Shown here piece after piece: positions 2,337 to 33,612 of a stretch of DNA of 35,560 nt. The notes below the pieces were generated by a model. That model saw only the letters and a list, made by a program, of their open reading frames with translations. It searched no databases and was not told where the DNA came from. The number at the start of each line of letters is the position of its first letter. Positions within the stretch are counted from its first letter, which is position 1. The stretch is taken from assembly GCA_027622595.1 (NCBI GenBank), contig JAQBZZ010000016.1:1-35560 (forward strand), given 5' to 3'. The translations under genes and the position numbers were made by a program. Origin of the DNA: Chloroflexota bacterium (GTDB lineage Bacteria; Chloroflexota; Dehalococcoidia; Lucifugimonadales; UBA2985).

Positions 2337-3689
2337 GTCACCCTTAGAAAGACTGTCCTGAAGCTCGACTCTCAGCTCTACTGAACGGGCATGGGCATCG
2401 AAGCCCTCGGCGCGGGCCAACGTGGCCGCTGTCTTTGTGAAATTGCGGGCGGTATCCGAGTCGAGGGCCACTATGGGTGTCCTCTTGAGAAACTGGGTTA
2501 CTCCCAGGTATGAGCTGAAGCGCGCTGTGCCCCCTGTCGGCATGACGTGGCTGGGGCCGGCAATATAATCGCCCATGCTCTCCGGAGAGTGGTCTCCCAG
2601 GAAAATGCCGCCTGCATGGCGCACCTTGCCAACGGAGTCCCAGGCATCCTTGACCATGAGGCAGAGATGCTCCGGAGCGTAGTCGTTGGACAGTTCAATG
2701 GCCTCATCCAGGGTATCCACGACAACAATCACTCCACGACGCTCGATGGAGGATGAGGCAGTATCCTTGCGTGTCAGGCTATTCAACTGCCTCTGTATCT
2801 CTTCCTGGACTGGAGCTATCAGGTTTTCGGAGGTCGTTATGAGGACGGGTGTGGCCAGGAGGTCGTGCTCCGCCTGACCCAGCAGGTCGGCAGCACAGAG
2901 AATTGGGTTCGCGGTCTCGTCCGCAACAATCAGGGTTTCCGTCGGCCCTTCCATGCCGTCTATGCCGACCTGTCCGTAGACCATTTTCTTTGCCAGGGTC
3001 ACGAAGATGTTTCCAGGGCCGCAGATCATGTCCACCTTTGGTACGGTCTCGGTGCCATAGGCCATAGCTGCAATGGCCTGTGCACCACCAATCTGGAATA
3101 CTCTGCTAACCCCGGCGACCTGCGCCGCGGCCAGTACGGTTGCCAGTGCGTTGGAAGGAGTCCCCTGATCGCCACGGGGTGGCGTGACAAGGACTATCTC
3201 CTTTACGCCTGCCACTCTGGCCGGTATGGCGGTCATGAGCACGGTGGATGGATATGCGGCGCGCCCGCCCGGGATGTATATCCCCACCCGCTCTATTGGT
3301 GTGATGATTTCGCCGAAGCCGTTTTCCATATCCATCCAGGGACGGGGGAGTGTGGCCGAGTGGAACTGACGTATACGGCTGGATGCACGGCGAAGGGCTT
3401 CCGTAACCTCGGGGGACACTTCAGACGCGGCCCTGGTCATGTCTTCGCGGCCAAGCTCAAAGGCAGCGATGTCTACACCGTCTATGAGCCTGGTGTACTC
3501 CCTAACGGCCTCGTCGCCACGCTTGGAGACCTGTGAGATTATCTGAGCGACGGCCTCTTCGGGCGTGAGGGGCTGGCCGAAGATGCGGTTTATGCCCTCC
3601 ATTATCTCCGGCGAAGCGTTCTGCTCCTCAAGAAAGGAGTCCCTGTTGAGGGCCTTCCGGCCTTCCTCTACGCCACGGACGATCTTCAT
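2319..3689 (-). CDS. hisD: Histidinol dehydrogenase
   Basis: Zinc enzyme that carries out the last two NAD-linked oxidations, histidinol to histidine. The 456-residue product shows the family's signatures: GVYIPGG-like VGIYIPGGRAAYPS, the GPGN loop (ICGPGNIFVTLAKK), EGPTETLIVAD, the QAEHD metal site, NDYAPEHL with the catalytic Glu-His, and DYIAGPSHVMPTGG. Its ATG overlaps the stop of the preceding gene by 4 bases (ATGA), implying translational coupling. The tail after DAHARSVELR is longer than usual, and its last residues and stop are encoded by a dispersed repeat. Identity is secure; the tail is probably dispensable. Confidence 0.96.
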   Translation of the reverse strand: MKIVRGVEEGRKALNRDSFLEEQNASPEIMEGINRIFGQPLTPEEAVAQIISQVSKRGDEAVREYTRLIDGVDIAAFELGREDMTRAASEVSPEVTEALRRASSRIRQFHSATLPRPWMDMENGFGEIITPIERVGIYIPGGRAAYPSTVLMTAIPARVAGVKEIVLVTPPRGDQGTPSNALATVLAAAQVAGVSRVFQIGGAQAIAAMAYGTETVPKVDMICGPGNIFVTLAKKMVYGQVGIDGMEGPTETLIVADETANPILCAADLLGQAEHDLLATPVLITTSENLIAPVQEEIQRQLNSLTRKDTASSSIERRGVIVVVDTLDEAIELSNDYAPEHLCLMVKDAWDSVGKVRHAGGIFLGDHSPESMGDYIAGPSHVMPTGGTARFSSYLGVTQFLKRTPIVALDSDTARNFTKTAATLARAEGFDAHARSVELRVELQDSLSKGDSQSSG

Positions 3690-4470: not shown

Positions 4471-5466
4471 CTACTTGCCAAGCGCCCTGACCAGGTCCTG
4501 GTATGAACTGCACTGGTCTTGAAAGACGTAGTGGGCTTGAAACACGGTGACGCTGCCTCCGCCAACCTGACGGAGGTGGTCAACGGCCACCAGGAGCTTA
4601 TCACGGGGTACGACCACGGTCACGGCATACCAGGCATCGGCATCGTCGCTGTACACCCTGGATATGGTTGGGCCCTTGAGGCCGGATAGGTCTGGCCACT
4701 GGGTCACGTGGGCGGCCACTTCCTCCGGGGAGTTTCCCCGTATGTTGGCGGTTATGCTGAAGAAGTCCCTGGCCCGAAGGTAAGCCTCCACGTGCTCCAG
4801 AAGGCTCTTGGTCTCTTGAGAAGCGGACTGTTCTTTAGCCAACAGTCGTTTGTTTCCGATGATGCAGGCCTGAGACGCCAGAATGGTCCCGTCCTTCAGG
4901 GTCTTCAGCCGATTTTCCCTCATCGTGATGCCGCTTGAGGTTATGTCGGCGATGACATCGGCGAAGCCCATGGCGGGAGCGGCCTCCAGTGTCCCGCTGG
5001 ACTGCACCAGCGAGAAGTAATTGACTCCGTGACGCAGGAGGTGGCGTTGCACCATTCGAGGATACTTGGTGGCTATCCTCAGGTCCTTGCCCCGTTCTCT
5101 CAGGTCAAGGGAGAGGTCGGCCAGGTCACTCATGGAATCTACGTCCAGCCAGGAGTCCGGGACGCCCATGACCAACTCACAGTTCCCGAATCCAAGGTCA
5201 TCCATTATGAGAATTGAGTCACTTCCCTCAGCGCTCAACTCCAGGAAGCGGTCAAGCCCCGTTATGCCGAGGTCGGCGCTGCCCTCTTCCACTTTCAGGG
5301 GTATGTCCCCCGCCCTCTGAAACAGGACCGTGGTATTAGGTATGGCGCGAATCGCGGCGGTATAGCGGCGTGGGCTGGAGCGCTCCACCGGCAGACCACT
5401 GTTCCTCAGGAAAGCCAGGGACGACTCGTAGAGTTCACCGTCGCTGGGGATTGCTAGACGTAAGAT
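4471..5466 (-). CDS. hisG: ATP phosphoribosyltransferase, long form, apparent AUC start
   Basis: Catalyses the first committed step of histidine synthesis (ATP + PRPP to phosphoribosyl-ATP). The frame encodes LRLAIPSDGELYE at the N-terminus, ADLGITGLDRF, and the PRPP loop region SSGTLEAAPAMGFADVIADI. It then has a C-terminal regulatory domain (GPTISRVYSDD... to the end), as in long-form HisG; 331 residues in all. The conserved first 26 residues lie upstream of the first canonical start (GTG at 5388). Between the upstream in-frame stop and that GTG there is no ATG, GTG or TTG. ATC at 5464-5466 sits where Met is expected, with GGAGG 6 bases upstream, so AUC initiation is proposed. A base error in place of ATG is the main alternative. 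It is 38 bases after hisZ. Confidence 0.9.
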   Translation of the reverse strand: MLRLAIPSDGELYESSLAFLRNSGLPVERSSPRRYTAAIRAIPNTTVLFQRAGDIPLKVEEGSADLGITGLDRFLELSAEGSDSILIMDDLGFGNCELVMGVPDSWLDVDSMSDLADLSLDLRERGKDLRIATKYPRMVQRHLLRHGVNYFSLVQSSGTLEAAPAMGFADVIADITSSGITMRENRLKTLKDGTILASQACIIGNKRLLAKEQSASQETKSLLEHVEAYLRARDFFSITANIRGNSPEEVAAHVTQWPDLSGLKGPTISRVYSDDADAWYAVTVVVPRDKLLVAVDHLRQVGGGSVTVFQAHYVFQDQCSSYQDLVRALGK

Positions 5467-5504
5467 GTCTGTCCTCCAAGTCTTTTGTGAATTCTTTTGG
5501 CGAA

Positions 5505-6737
5505 TTATTTCGAAGTTTTTTGCAAATTATTTCGTGCATTTTCGGGTGCTTTTTCAGGCAGGAGTCCCAGAAGGGATTCCAGGGTATAGGCGAAACCAAG
5601 CGCAGGCACGTCCTCTTCTCCTCCAAGGGCCTTGACCAGCCCATCGTAGCGGCCACCGCCGCACAGGGTGATGGGGCCATTGGAGCCGGGAGCCAGTATC
5701 TCGAAGACCATGCCTGTATAGTAGGCTATTCCACGCACGAGGCCTATGTCCACCATGAGGGCCGTGGACGGATAGCGCTTGTGGAAGCTGGACAGCACGT
5801 CCTCCAAGGGCGTGAGGACCTTCGGGTTAATATTGTACGCTTGAAGCACGGAGCGTATCTGAGGCAGGGCCTGTTCTTCCTCGCCTTTTACCGAGGAGAG
5901 GCGCGAGAAAAGGGAGATACCCTGCTCTATCTTCTTGGGGTCATCGCCACGCTTCAGCTTCTGGACGAAGCGGGTGAGGATATCCTCCATGGAGCGGCTA
6001 CCCTGAATATTACTAAGGGAGTCGTGAAAGAGGTCATGGAGAAGGTCAAGAGCCTCTCCCTCCTCCATATGATCCACCAGCGAGCTAGAGGCGCGGGCGT
6101 CTTCGGCGGATTTCATGAGTCCAAGGGAGTAAGCCTGTTCCTGTATCCTCTGTCCCTCCTCCAAGCTCTTCTTGAGGCGCGGCAGGCTGGCTATCAGGAA
6201 GGCTTGTGCCCTATGAGAGAGGCCGATCTCCTCCAGCATGAGGTGCAAGACGCCAACATGACCGACTACACACGTTGAGGCCGGCGAACCCATGAGGGAG
6301 AGGCCATGCTGCGCCAGGGCAAGGACCTCGCCGTCGGACTCAGGCGAGGCAGCGCCTATGATCTCGGCCCCCGTCTGGTGCAACTGCTTGAACCCGCTGG
6401 CCTCGTCGTAACGGAAGATGGGGCCGCTGTACTGTATCCGCAGTGGGAGTGACTCCCCGCCAGCCTTTTCCAGGTAGTAGCGTATCACGGATGATGTGAA
6501 CTCCGGACGGAGGCTGACCCTGTTGCCTCCGGGATCGGTGAAGGTGTACATGCGGGTTGCAAGCTCTCCCCCGGACTTGCGTAGGAATAGCTCGGTCGGC
6601 TCAAGCAGCGGCGTATCTATGGCCTGGTAGCCATGAGAGGAAAGATGCTCCTGGAGAGTTCCCTGTAGGGATGTCCTACGTTCGAGGTCTTTGGGAGGCT
6701 CGTCTCTCATCCCAGGCAGTGGCCGGATTGCTGGCAT
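5505..6737 (-). CDS. hisZ: HisZ, HisRS-like regulatory subunit of ATP phosphoribosyltransferase
   Basis: 410 residues with the class II aminoacyl-tRNA synthetase catalytic fold: GMRDEPP at the N-terminus, motif 2 FRYD (108-111) followed by LHQTGAEIIG, LVRGIAYYTGMVFEI, and motif 3 GGGRYDGLV...ALGFAYTLESLL. The chain stops there, lacking the anticodon-binding domain of true HisRS. This and its place directly before hisG support HisZ. It is the first gene of the operon, about 30 bases from the predicted transcription start. No good Shine-Dalgarno is visible before the ATG. Its coding end contains two imperfect 22-23-base direct repeats (GAAATAATT...). A HisRS role is less likely. HisZ normally partners the short HisG, so pairing with a long form is odd. 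Confidence 0.85.
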   Translation of the reverse strand: MPAIRPLPGMRDEPPKDLERRTSLQGTLQEHLSSHGYQAIDTPLLEPTELFLRKSGGELATRMYTFTDPGGNRVSLRPEFTSSVIRYYLEKAGGESLPLRIQYSGPIFRYDEASGFKQLHQTGAEIIGAASPESDGEVLALAQHGLSLMGSPASTCVVGHVGVLHLMLEEIGLSHRAQAFLIASLPRLKKSLEEGQRIQEQAYSLGLMKSAEDARASSSLVDHMEEGEALDLLHDLFHDSLSNIQGSRSMEDILTRFVQKLKRGDDPKKIEQGISLFSRLSSVKGEEEQALPQIRSVLQAYNINPKVLTPLEDVLSSFHKRYPSTALMVDIGLVRGIAYYTGMVFEILAPGSNGPITLCGGGRYDGLVKALGGEEDVPALGFAYTLESLLGLLPEKAPENARNNLQKTSK

Positions 6738-6806: not shown

Positions 6807-6900
6807 CCAGGGCACGCCCTGGACCCACAATAAGCGTTCGTTGTAATCGTCTAGCGATGTTCTATTATCTGTAAGAGTAGTGGACTAGGCCAAGTCTGGG
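6807..6900 (+). repeat. Repeat family 1, near-full copy
   Basis: The copy has CCAGGGCACGCCCTGG (perfect palindrome, 6807-6822), then ACCCACAATAAGC, TTGTAATCGTCTAGCGATG, TTCTATTATCTGTAAG, and a tail resembling the one at 17024-17106 (GGACTAGGCCAAGTCTGG versus GAGCTGGGCCGAGTCCAG). It fills most of the 187-base divergent gap between hisZ and the DUF167 gene. Confidence 0.75.
6841..6868 (+). promoter_or_regulatory. Promoter-like block within repeat, upstream of DUF167 gene
   Basis: TTGTAA (6841-6846), 16 bases and TATTAT (6863-6868) on the plus strand are well placed for the gene starting at 6925. The same positions in two other copies read TTGCAC-N16-TACTAT, so the promoter-like block belongs to the repeat. 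Confidence 0.5.
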
Positions 6901-10049: not shown

Positions 10050-12626
10050 CTATCCGCACCTGTTGTAGCCGCAGGCGGGGCACATTTCGCACCCCTCCTG
10101 GTGAACCAGGAATCCTTCACAGTCGGGGCACTTGGCCTTGCCGACGACGCCGTTGCCGTTGGCCTCAGCCTTCAGGAACAGACCCTGCTGCACGGCAAAG
10201 GGCCTGCCTTGAGCCTCGCCGAAAGGCTCGTCGTGGCCCTTCGACAAGCTCAGGGTGAGCGGGTCCGAAGGGGCCTGAATGTGGCGGCTGAGAACGAGGG
10301 CAACGGCGTCGGGCGCCGAGCGCACCAATGTGCCGTCGTCCCATTGCGGACAGCAGGTGATGCCCCTGAGTTGCTCTGTCACCTGATCCGGGTTGATACC
10401 AGACCGCAGAGCCAGGGAGACCAGGCGGGATATGGCTTCCAGCTGGGCCGAGTCGCAGCCCCCGGCCTTGCCGAGGTTGGAGAACACCTCGAAGGGGTGT
10501 CCATCTCGGGAGTTTATGGTGATGTACATGTTGCCGTGGCCGGTGCGCACCCTATCGGTGACGCCCAGTACCTGGGACGGTCTTGCCATCGGCATGGGCA
10601 AAACGCTTTGAGCCTGGTCGTTGTTTATCGTGACCATATCCGTGAGGCCTTCTTCTGCCGTCTCCAAGGCTGCCTTGCCAGTGGCACCGGAGGTAAGGAC
10701 CTCTTCCTCACGACTGCCTGACCGGTAGACGGTGATGCCCTTGCAACCCAACTCCCAGGCCAGGAGATAGGCGGTGCGTACGTCGTCCCTGGTGGCGAAG
10801 TTTGGAAAGTTGATGGTCTTGGATATGGCGGCGTCAACGCTCTCCTGGAAGACGGCCTGCATCCGTACGTGGTCCCGGGGAGATATGTCCTCAGCTGTTA
10901 CGAAGACCTCTTTGACCCATTCAGGGACATCATCCCGATTCTGGATAGAGCCACCGTTGGCCAGGTACTCCATCAGTTCGTCGCTGTAGAAATCGCCCTC
11001 CCTGGCCACCTGCTCGAAGTTGTGGTCGACGTAGAGTAAGCTCTCGCCCTCCAGGATGTTGTGCTTGTGGTAGGAGAGGGAGAAGAGAGGCTCTATGCCG
11101 CTGGAGCAGCCGGCGATCATGGAGATGGTGCCCGTTGGCGCGACGGTGAGGCGACAGGCATTGCGCATAAGGCGGCCCTGTTTCTGATAGGTGCTTCCCT
11201 GGTAGGCAGGGAAGACTCCGCGCTCACCTGCAAGCTGCTCTGAGATGTCGTCCGCCTCCTGGCGTATGAAGCGCATTACCTCACGTCCCAAATCAAGGCC
11301 TTCCTGGGAGTTGTATGGAATGTCCATGCCCACCAGCATGTCGGCAAAGCCCATGACTCCCAGCCCGGTCTTGCGGGTCTGCTTGGTCATCCGCTCTATC
11401 TCCGCAACGGAGTAGCGGTTGGCATCGATGACGTTGTCAAGGAAGCGGGTGGCGATGCGCACCACATGACCAAGGCGGTCCCAGTCCAGCGTAAACTGGC
11501 CGTTTGCCTCCACAACAAACTTGGAGAGGTTGATTGAGCCGAGGTTGCAGGACTCGTACGGCAGCAGGGGCTGCTCGCCGCAGGGGTTGGTTGCCGTCAT
11601 GCGGCCCAGGTGGAGGGTTGGGTTGTCCTGGTTGACGCGGTCGAGGAATATGGTGCCGGGCTCTCCGTTGAGCCATGCTCCCTCTATCATATGGTCGAAT
11701 ACCTCCGCGGCGCTCAGACTGCCGACCACCTGGCCGGAGTGGGGGTCTCGCAGGTTGTAATCTTCGCCCTTTTCCACGGCCTGCATGAACTCCTCGCTGG
11801 CTCCCACAGATATGTTGAAGTTGTGGATCTCCCCCTCCTGGGTCTTGCAGGTGATGAAGTCCAGGATGTCGGGATGGTGGACATCCATGACGGCCATGTT
11901 GGCACCGTCACGCTTGCCCCCCTGAGTGACCAGGGTTGAAACCGAGGAGAGATGGCGTAATACCGCCACAGGGCCGCAAGCCCTGCCGTGAGTGGTTGAG
12001 ATGGGAGCGCCCTTGGGCCGGATGCCTGAGAGGGCGAAGCCTGTGCCTCCACCGAACTTCTGCACCAGCGCGGCCTCCTTGGCCGTCTCCATGATGCCCT
12101 CCATGCTGTCCTCCAACCCTATGACGAAGCAGGCAGAGAGGGTACCCGCGCCGGTGCCCGCGTTCATGAGGGTGGGAGAGTTTGGAACATACTCAAGGCT
12201 GACCATGACCCGGTAGTACTCCTCTTCCCAGTAGGCCACGTCAGCCTGCGGGTTGTAGAGGGTCTCGGTCTCGGCGATGGCCCGGGCGACGCGGCGGCAC
12301 ACATCCGACCAGGAGTGCTCGATGATGTTGCCCTTGGAGTCTTTTAGGAAATAACGCTTCTCCAGAACAACGCGGGCATTGTCGGAGATCTCAGGCTCCA
12401 GGTCAGAGGCAACGGCATCCGCAAACGGCTCTATGGCCTGTTTTGGCATTCTGGTCTGATTATTGGCATTGCCGTCGCGGTTGACCTTGGACAGTGAGTC
12501 AGCGACCTGCTGGGCCACGGTGGGGTCATCCACCCCGGCGGCCTCCAGGGCGGCCAGGACGTCTTTCATCAGAACTCTTTTGCCCCTGGCGGTCTTGTTT
12601 CCGTTTGTTCCTTCTGCGATGGTCAT
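10050..12626 (-). CDS. nrdJ: Adenosylcobalamin-dependent (class II) ribonucleotide reductase
   Basis: Reduces ribonucleotides to deoxyribonucleotides with adenosylcobalamin, independent of oxygen. 858 residues. The redox cysteine C166 is in LSACFV, the active-site NPCGEQ is at 347-352 (C349, E351) and the partner C360 is in YESCNLGSINLSKF. QKFGGGTGFALSGIRPKG and RLTVAPTGTISMI are also typical. The C-terminus carries a cysteine-rich zinc-ribbon-like tail (C833, C836, C846, C849, C852, C857). Residues 787-809 (10200-10268) are encoded by a dispersed repeat and read DPLTLSLSKG...FGEAQGRP. This insert lies between the DUF-like LRGITCCPQWDDG region and the Cys tail. It follows nrdR by 96 bases with no promoter seen between, so a single transcript is likely. 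No cobalamin riboswitch is visible. Confidence 0.95.
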   Translation of the reverse strand: MTIAEGTNGNKTARGKRVLMKDVLAALEAAGVDDPTVAQQVADSLSKVNRDGNANNQTRMPKQAIEPFADAVASDLEPEISDNARVVLEKRYFLKDSKGNIIEHSWSDVCRRVARAIAETETLYNPQADVAYWEEEYYRVMVSLEYVPNSPTLMNAGTGAGTLSACFVIGLEDSMEGIMETAKEAALVQKFGGGTGFALSGIRPKGAPISTTHGRACGPVAVLRHLSSVSTLVTQGGKRDGANMAVMDVHHPDILDFITCKTQEGEIHNFNISVGASEEFMQAVEKGEDYNLRDPHSGQVVGSLSAAEVFDHMIEGAWLNGEPGTIFLDRVNQDNPTLHLGRMTATNPCGEQPLLPYESCNLGSINLSKFVVEANGQFTLDWDRLGHVVRIATRFLDNVIDANRYSVAEIERMTKQTRKTGLGVMGFADMLVGMDIPYNSQEGLDLGREVMRFIRQEADDISEQLAGERGVFPAYQGSTYQKQGRLMRNACRLTVAPTGTISMIAGCSSGIEPLFSLSYHKHNILEGESLLYVDHNFEQVAREGDFYSDELMEYLANGGSIQNRDDVPEWVKEVFVTAEDISPRDHVRMQAVFQESVDAAISKTINFPNFATRDDVRTAYLLAWELGCKGITVYRSGSREEEVLTSGATGKAALETAEEGLTDMVTINNDQAQSVLPMPMARPSQVLGVTDRVRTGHGNMYITINSRDGHPFEVFSNLGKAGGCDSAQLEAISRLVSLALRSGINPDQVTEQLRGITCCPQWDDGTLVRSAPDAVALVLSRHIQAPSDPLTLSLSKGHDEPFGEAQGRPFAVQQGLFLKAEANGNGVVGKAKCPDCEGFLVHQEGCEMCPACGYNRCG
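10200..10268. repeat. Repeat family 3 inserted in frame in nrdJ
   Basis: CTTCGACAAGCTCAGGGTGA (near 10240) and the neighbouring CCTTGAGCCTCGCC match the intergenic copies at 33530 and 34968 (CTTCGACAGGCTCAG.ATGAGCGG). In nrdJ it is read as LTLSLSKG and FGEAQGRP without breaking the frame. Confidence 0.75.
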
Positions 12627-13741: not shown

Positions 13742-14743
13742 TTAGGACTGTGGGTCTGACCTCAACGAGGCCATGCCGCTGATGGCCTCCAGCACGACAC
13801 GGTGGGCTGCTTCCGCGGCCAGCCCGGCAGGGCCATCGTAGGGAGGCGAGACCTCGACCACGTCCATGGCGACCAGCTTGCCGGTCAGGGCCACTCTCCG
13901 CACGGCCCTGAGCAGCTCCGCGGTGGTGAGGCCACCCGGCTTCGGCGTGCCGGTGCCAGGAGCGAAAGCCGGGTCCAGGACGTCTATGTCCACGGAGAGG
14001 TAGAGGTACTCGGGGCCTTCCTGGGCCTGGACAAGAGCCTCCTCAAGCACGACATCGAAGCCCTTGGACTCGATGTCCAACGCGGTGTGCCACCGCATTC
14101 CCTGGTCACGCATCCAGTCGAAGAGGCGGCGGTCGGGCGCGTAGCCCCGCAGTCCGACCTGGACGAAGTTCTTTCCAGGCACCACGCCGCTTTCGATGAG
14201 CCTTCGCATTGGGCTGCCGTGGGATATTCGGGAGCCGTACAGGGAGTCCCAGGTGTCGGCATGGGCATCGAAGTGGACTATGCCGACCTTGCCAACACCG
14301 TAGCGTTGCACAACGGCTGTGGCGCTCGGCAGCGTCACGGAATGATCGCCGCCAAGGACTACTGGAACTGCTCCTGCGTCAAGCGCCTCCGACACCTTGT
14401 CGTTGATAGCCTGGTGGCTCTGCTCCAGAGAAAAGGGGGTGCACATGGCATCGCCGAAATCAACGACCTTGAGGACTTGGGTTGGGTACACATCCAGCCC
14501 TATGTGGTAGAGGTAGTCGTTTGGACTGCCGACGTAGCCCGCCTGACGTATGGCCCTTGGCCAGAACCTGGCACCGGGCCTATTGACCACCATGTCCATC
14601 GGCGCGCCGATGATGGCCACGTCTGCGCCCAGCTCCCGAAGCTCCGAGGTCGTCCGCGCCAGGGGTGCGTGCAGGTACGTGGGTATTCCTACGTATGCGG
14701 GATGTCCCGGTTCACTCGCCGGTTCACTCGATGGAGTTTTTAT
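13742..14743 (-). CDS. Agmatinase-family ureohydrolase, apparent AUA start
   Basis: Binuclear-manganese ureohydrolase, probably agmatinase (agmatine to putrescine and urea). Metal ligands appear in VVLGGDHSV, HFDAHADTWD and SVDIDVLDPAFAPGTGTPKPGG. The first canonical start (GTG at 14620) would remove conserved sequence: upstream in the same frame is HPAYVGIPTYLHAPL...LRELGAD, followed by VAIIGAPMD and NRPGARFWPRAIR. The frame is closed by TAG at 14753-14755. No ATG, GTG or TTG lies between it and 14620. ATA at 14741-14743 has AGGAG six bases upstream, so AUA initiation (333 residues) is proposed. A perfect tandem 12-base duplication (CGAGTGAACCGG twice) codes for SEPASEPG near the N-terminus. 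Guanidinobutyrase or a related activity is possible. Confidence 0.88.
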   Translation of the reverse strand: MKTPSSEPASEPGHPAYVGIPTYLHAPLARTTSELRELGADVAIIGAPMDMVVNRPGARFWPRAIRQAGYVGSPNDYLYHIGLDVYPTQVLKVVDFGDAMCTPFSLEQSHQAINDKVSEALDAGAVPVVLGGDHSVTLPSATAVVQRYGVGKVGIVHFDAHADTWDSLYGSRISHGSPMRRLIESGVVPGKNFVQVGLRGYAPDRRLFDWMRDQGMRWHTALDIESKGFDVVLEEALVQAQEGPEYLYLSVDIDVLDPAFAPGTGTPKPGGLTTAELLRAVRRVALTGKLVAMDVVEVSPPYDGPAGLAAEAAHRVVLEAISGMASLRSDPQS

Positions 14744-14763: not shown

Positions 14764-14850
14764 GCAGGGTACACCCTGCACCCACAATTAACTGATGTTG
14801 TACTGGCCTGACGCGTTTTTCAATACGTAGGCGTGGGTTTGGGCTGAGCC
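14764..14850 (+). repeat. Repeat family 1 copy with compensatory palindrome change
   Basis: GCAGGGTACACCCTGC (14764-14779) keeps perfect pairing although both arms differ from the usual GCAGGGC/GCCCTGC. It continues ACCCACAATTAACTG, TTGTACTGGCCTGACGCG and a GGGCTGAGCCCAGTTTC tail, aligned with 17024-17106. It fills the gap between the CCA-enzyme gene and the agmatinase gene. Confidence 0.7.
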
Positions 14851-33523: not shown

Positions 33524-33612
33524 TCATGTCCTTCGACAGGCTCAGAATAAGCGGGCAGGGCACGCCCTGCACCCACAATAAGCTGCTGTCGCACTGGTCT
33601 GGCGAGCGGGGA
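33524..33612 (+). repeat. Repeat families 3 and 1 in tandem
   Basis: CGCTCATGTCCTTCGACAGG (family 3) is followed by CTCAGAATAAGCGG. Then comes a perfect GCAGGGCACGCCCTGC palindrome (33555-33570) with ACCCACAATAAGCTG, CGCACTGGTCTGGCGA (family 1). The promoter of the toxin-antitoxin pair begins 9 bases further on. Confidence 0.7.

Follow-up and report, generated by a model that had tools for sequence, protein, structure and literature searches.

A probable AUA translation start in an agmatinase-like gene of a Chloroflexota bacterium

An agmatinase-like gene on the minus strand of the window (the whole stretch of DNA analyzed here, 35,560 nucleotides) is probably translated from an AUA codon located at 14743-14741, a reading to which we assign a probability of roughly 0.66. 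The AUA start is a further case of an already known type of start. The features on which this reading depends are as follows.

13742..14743, minus strand: agmatinase/guanidino-hydrolase-like gene read from ATA, 333 amino acids plus stop (PF00491, TIGR01230, open frame)
14755-14753, minus strand: in-frame TAG closing the frame upstream (sequence, open frame)
14754-14750, minus strand: Shine-Dalgarno (SD) AGGAG, with the spacer AAAACC giving six bases to the ATA (sequence and SD scan)
14743-14741, minus strand: ATA, proposed start codon, which coincides with the ATG of the relatives after discounting the 12-bp duplication
14707..14730, minus strand: perfect 12-bp tandem duplication, CGAGTGAACCGG twice, giving four extra in-frame codons in the leader (alignment with relatives)
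14620-14618, minus strand: GTG, first canonical in-frame codon, an unlikely start (no SD; ordered residues 21-41 would be dropped)

The agmatinase-like gene and its start

The frame, which ends with a stop at 13744-13742 on the minus strand, matches PF00491 (E 1.2e-86, the domain match beginning at residue 40), and its TIGR01230 score exceeds the cut-off. The motifs typical of Mn binding, GGDHS, DAHAD and DIDVLDP, are all present. Judging by the domain and these metal-binding motifs, the predicted product is a member of the arginase/agmatinase (ureohydrolase) family; a guanidinobutyrase and the 7esr protein are equally close to it, and the substrate label "agmatinase" denotes the family only.

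The closure of the frame by the TAG at 14755-14753 was borne out by the sequence, as were the coordinates and the description given in an earlier sequence-only reading of this DNA. The codons following this TAG are GAG AAA ACC ATA AAA ACT CCA TCG AGT GAA CCG GCG AGT GAA CCG GGA CAT CCC GCA TAC, and the first ATG, GTG or TTG found downstream is the GTG at 14620. The stretch of protein encoded upstream of this GTG includes HPAYVGIPTYLHAPLARTTSELRELGAD, and the proposal that conserved residues precede the GTG was confirmed: residues 13-41 show a median identity of 55% to 25 relatives from the order (66% in the remainder of the protein), and the phmmer alignments with the best solved relatives (3nio, 7esr, and 1gq6) begin at residues 12-14, those with the two best at residues 12-13. 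In the AlphaFold2 model, which was based on 28 sequences and has a mean pLDDT of 85, residues 1-16 are disordered, while the mean pLDDT amounts to 90 at residues 21-30, 97 at residues 31-40 and 91 at residues 41-50. A helix at 32-37 leads into a strand at 42-46, and a protein starting at the GTG would begin with the first residue of this strand.

The stop is separated from the conserved block by 16 codons, and of these only the ATA placed six bases after AGGAG differs from ATG by a single base. It occupies the ATG position of the relatives, and its choice as the best start in the sequence-only reading holds. In 26 of the 28 relatives from the order (25 with ATG and one with GTG), the start lies exactly nine codons before the position aligned with His14, and the same distance was observed in genomes found in GTDB. 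Thirteen codons separate the ATA from His14 in the present gene, or nine without the 12-bp duplication, which places the ATA exactly on the ATG of the relatives. Since the ATA stands at the ancestral ATG position once the duplication is removed, it is most simply explained by an AUG-to-AUA change at the old start rather than by a chance ATA. Taken alone, a suitably spaced ATH codon behind an SD is not an uncommon chance occurrence, and the weight of the argument comes from the exact match with the position of the relatives' ATG. The ATA was observed at this start in one genome only, the relatives carrying ATG (25/28) or GTG (1/28), and no relative above about 70% identity was found. Conservation of the near-cognate codon is usual in AUH starts but is not required, judging from the comparison with the citZ gene of Staphylococcus aureus, where it is lineage-specific.

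AUA now occupies the site of the ancestral AUG, the SD and the reading frame having been retained, and the conserved N-terminus has no canonical start upstream of it. In this reading, the AGGAG may pair with the 16S rRNA and thus set the initiator tRNA (anticodon CAU) on the AUA, the third position being mismatched; most of the resulting complexes would be rejected by IF3, and the output of the enzyme might be a tenth of the AUG rate, on the scale of the AUA genes of S. aureus. We infer the expression of the gene, its dose and its dependence on IF3 from this scheme. The same mechanism may operate elsewhere in the family, where the evolutionary evidence is firmer, in hisG (AUC/AUU) and infC (AUA in sister genera, GUA here).

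The S. aureus genes infC, ccpN, and citZ start at AUA and are expressed at about 10% of the AUG level in poor medium, the ccpN start reaching up to 30% in rich medium; these starts have extended SDs and were demonstrated by ribosome profiling and reporters (PMC13009471). The agmatinase-like gene resembles them in having an AUA after an SD, and it resembles citZ in particular, which also encodes a metabolic enzyme and carries AUA in one strain lineage, since its ATA occurs in one genome. It differs from them in that its SD is only AGGAG and that it is known from sequence. The AUU start of the Escherichia coli infC gene is autoregulated by IF3 (PMC5472188). The AUA of the agmatinase-like gene would likewise be an AUH start subject to IF3 discrimination, and the infC genes of the order also start at AUH; in E. 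coli, however, the feedback acts on IF3 itself, whereas no feedback is evident in the case of the agmatinase-like gene, and infC of the present genome has GUA.

In-frame CTG codons were discarded as candidate starts of the agmatinase-like gene, their positions falling inside the conserved block. An overlapping short frame, GTG TAT AGG AGA AAA CCA TAA, the stop of which overlaps the ATA, might serve as a reinitiation leader, but neither an SD nor conservation was seen for it. A promoter scan upstream of the gene yielded nothing.

Alternative readings of the start

As the main alternative, the ATA might reflect a recent loss of the start (AUG to AUA) in a gene which is barely or not expressed, i.e., either a pseudogene in its early stages or a variant within the population under relaxed selection. 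This is unlikely, although several features are in line with it. Of 116 columns without variation in the other lineages, the protein has changed 12, the largest number in any lineage (1-7 of about 112 in the others, at most 7/113); these changes include the loss of a single core residue, and next to the RPGARF motif G is replaced by W. The protein also forms the longest end branch in the tree (0.5), and the 12-bp duplication in the leader is perfect and hence probably young. The altered columns and the long branch hint at a relaxed constraint on the sequence, such as might follow the loss of a good start. Against decay, the 333 codons contain no stop or frameshift, the two length changes (+12 and -3 bases) are both in frame, the metal-binding motifs are intact, and the codon usage is ordinary. 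Besides, the isolated lineage G236 has a similar branch (0.45) with 5/110 invariant columns changed, so that branch length accounts for part of the excess and the difference is a weak one.

Initiation at the GTG at 14620, which would give a 292-residue protein, is very improbable: this GTG is the first canonical codon and the Pfam match begins nearly at the same place, but it is not preceded by an SD, the start of all the close relatives lies further upstream, and the conserved residues 13-41, modelled with confidence from residue 21 on, would be lost. Equally improbable is a consensus or assembly error, in which the cell would have ATG and the metagenome consensus gives ATA. The genome is admittedly a fragmented draft (86 contigs), and one otherwise good gene contains an in-frame TAG (L049 near 1394), which indicates that such substitutions occur, by error or by mutation. 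With one stray stop in 562 genes, however, we estimate that the sample should contain only about 0.06 damaged start codons, which makes an error at 14743-14741 unlikely; and the odd start of hisG, on the same contig, is kept in other genera, so that odd starts are not generally errors here. In the TAG-containing gene, which we take to be DUF3536-like, the stop is followed by LLQLPSGRTINLFFYDGPISR and the frame is otherwise good.

Noncanonical start codons of hisG and infC and initiation in the lineage

Two other genes of this genome have noncanonical codons at their start positions.

4471..5466, minus strand: hisG, read from ATC at 5466-5464 with GGAGG at 5477-5473 (TIGR00070, TIGR03455; AUC/AUU kept in genomes G002 and G004)
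L185 (contig C86 of this genome), 12069-12566, minus strand: infC, with GTA at the conserved start codon (comparison with 32 genomes of the order)

The hisG gene opens with ATC TTA CGT CTA GCA ATC CCC AGC GAC GGT, GGAGG lying six bases before the ATC, and its first canonical in-frame codon is the GTG at 5388, 26 codons in. The family sample comprised five genomes, each from a separate genus, and hisG was present in four of them. The same codon is ATC in G002 and ATT in G004, with GGAGG at the same spacing, whereas G003 carries TTG one codon downstream of the AUH position, and the hisG genes of other families mostly have canonical start codons at or upstream of this position. Further-upstream in-frame canonical codons exist in G002 and G004; they lie inside the overlapping hisZ-like gene and have no SD. 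As the SD-AUH arrangement is common to three genera, an assembly error in a single genome is ruled out, and the comparison argues strongly that the AUH start of hisG is real. The AUC of hisG had been put forward as a second AUH start within 10 kb, and this stands: it lies 9.3 kb from the ATA, and the three genera have AUC, AUC, and AUU. No paper on a near-cognate hisG start appeared among the matches listed. The persistence of this start across three genera suggests that selection may have favored making the first enzyme of histidine biosynthesis at a low level or under IF3 control. Gene finders restricted to ATG, GTG, and TTG would trim 41 residues from the agmatinase-like protein and 26 from HisG.

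The hisG gene, which encodes a C-terminal regulatory domain, follows a hisZ/hisS-like gene in the window (4471-6737, minus strand). Since hisZ normally accompanies a short hisG, this pairing is unusual.

In 31 of the 32 genomes of the order, infC starts with AUA, AUC, or AUU at one conserved codon, mostly with an SD; the sister genera have AUA. This AUH start is, by comparison with other bacteria, the known arrangement for the self-control of IF3 (PMC5472188, PMC13009471). The infC gene of the present genome has GGAG at a suitable distance from its GTA and no better start, and GTA was seen in this one draft only; initiation at this GUA would make it an uncommon version of the textbook feedback loop. 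In Streptomyces, the GTC start of sigR is repressed by IF3, as established by experiment (PMC5472188). The GUA of infC resembles this GTC in departing from AUG at two positions, and sigR is a case of a conserved noncanonical start setting the dose of a protein, as that of hisG might do; unlike hisG and infC, sigR encodes a sigma factor, and its repression by IF3 was shown experimentally. The fact that AUH starts have been kept in hisG (three genera) and infC (31/32 genomes) indicates that such starts work in these bacteria.

The sequence-only reading had gone further, suggesting for the lineage either an unusually tolerant initiation or a habit of control, and had proposed a genome scan and an inspection of IF3 and the initiator tRNA. 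Genes in which the coding signal begins before the first canonical start were sought in 774 kb (46% of the genome; 562 genes with a 5' end), the rows counted as convincing being a matter of our own judgement. A codon-usage scan blind to both cases ranked the agmatinase-like gene and hisG among the top five of 416 genes, and both were again near the top in the enlarged scan (562 genes); they are the only two convincing near-cognate-only starts in this part of the genome (2/562). G002 yielded 4/181 (infC with AUA, thiS with CUG, a Doc-like gene with AUU, and a site-2-protease-like gene with CUG or AUU) and G004 yielded 0/278; the hisG genes of G002 (AUC) and G004 (AUU) were not flagged because canonical codons occur upstream. 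The candidate starts of G002 other than that of infC are at L220 near 9214 (+) and 307 (-), and at L221 near 1766; the names Doc-like and site-2-protease-like are those we presume for these genes. The totals of 6/1,021 in the family and 0/255 among control genes from three other families do not differ significantly (Fisher p = 0.6), no enrichment of AUH over other codons was visible at SD-spaced positions, and thiS has ATG in the present genome, which means that the CTG of G002 is not conserved. These are therefore gene-specific cases rather than a demonstrated habit. The IF3 gene is present, and the initiator tRNA, which was not found in this draft genome, has one and the same ordinary sequence in three sister genera; together with the scan, this does not bear out unusually tolerant initiation. 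Control is possible for the conserved starts of hisG and infC, but nothing favors it over recent mutation in the agmatinase-like gene. It is quite improbable that initiation is set loosely by IF3 throughout the family, in which case the GUA of infC (AUA in the sisters) would lower IF3, and hisG, the agmatinase-like gene, thiS of the sister genus and others would have their expression tuned through IF3-sensitive AUH or CUG starts.

Other sequence features

14765..14781, minus strand: palindrome GTGCAGGGTGTACCCTG, just upstream of the agmatinase-like gene, a copy of a dispersed intergenic repeat (repeat scan)
1117-1133, 6808-6824, and 33556-33572: other copies of the palindrome in the window

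The dispersed palindrome, GTGCAGGG-N4-CCCTG(C), has seven matches in the window versus 0.17 expected, and copies also occur in other contigs of the genome. A related form was found 23 times in 774 kb, versus 0.4 expected from base composition. Several of the copies are located just upstream of genes.

Thioredoxin-like genes with an in-frame TGA at the position of the first cysteine were observed in the present genome (L050:1940-1942, WASW*ACR) and in G002 (L209 near 3382-3384, minus strand, ATW*PTC). This TGA probably encodes selenocysteine; selB was detected above its cut-off in the present genome, G002, and G004.
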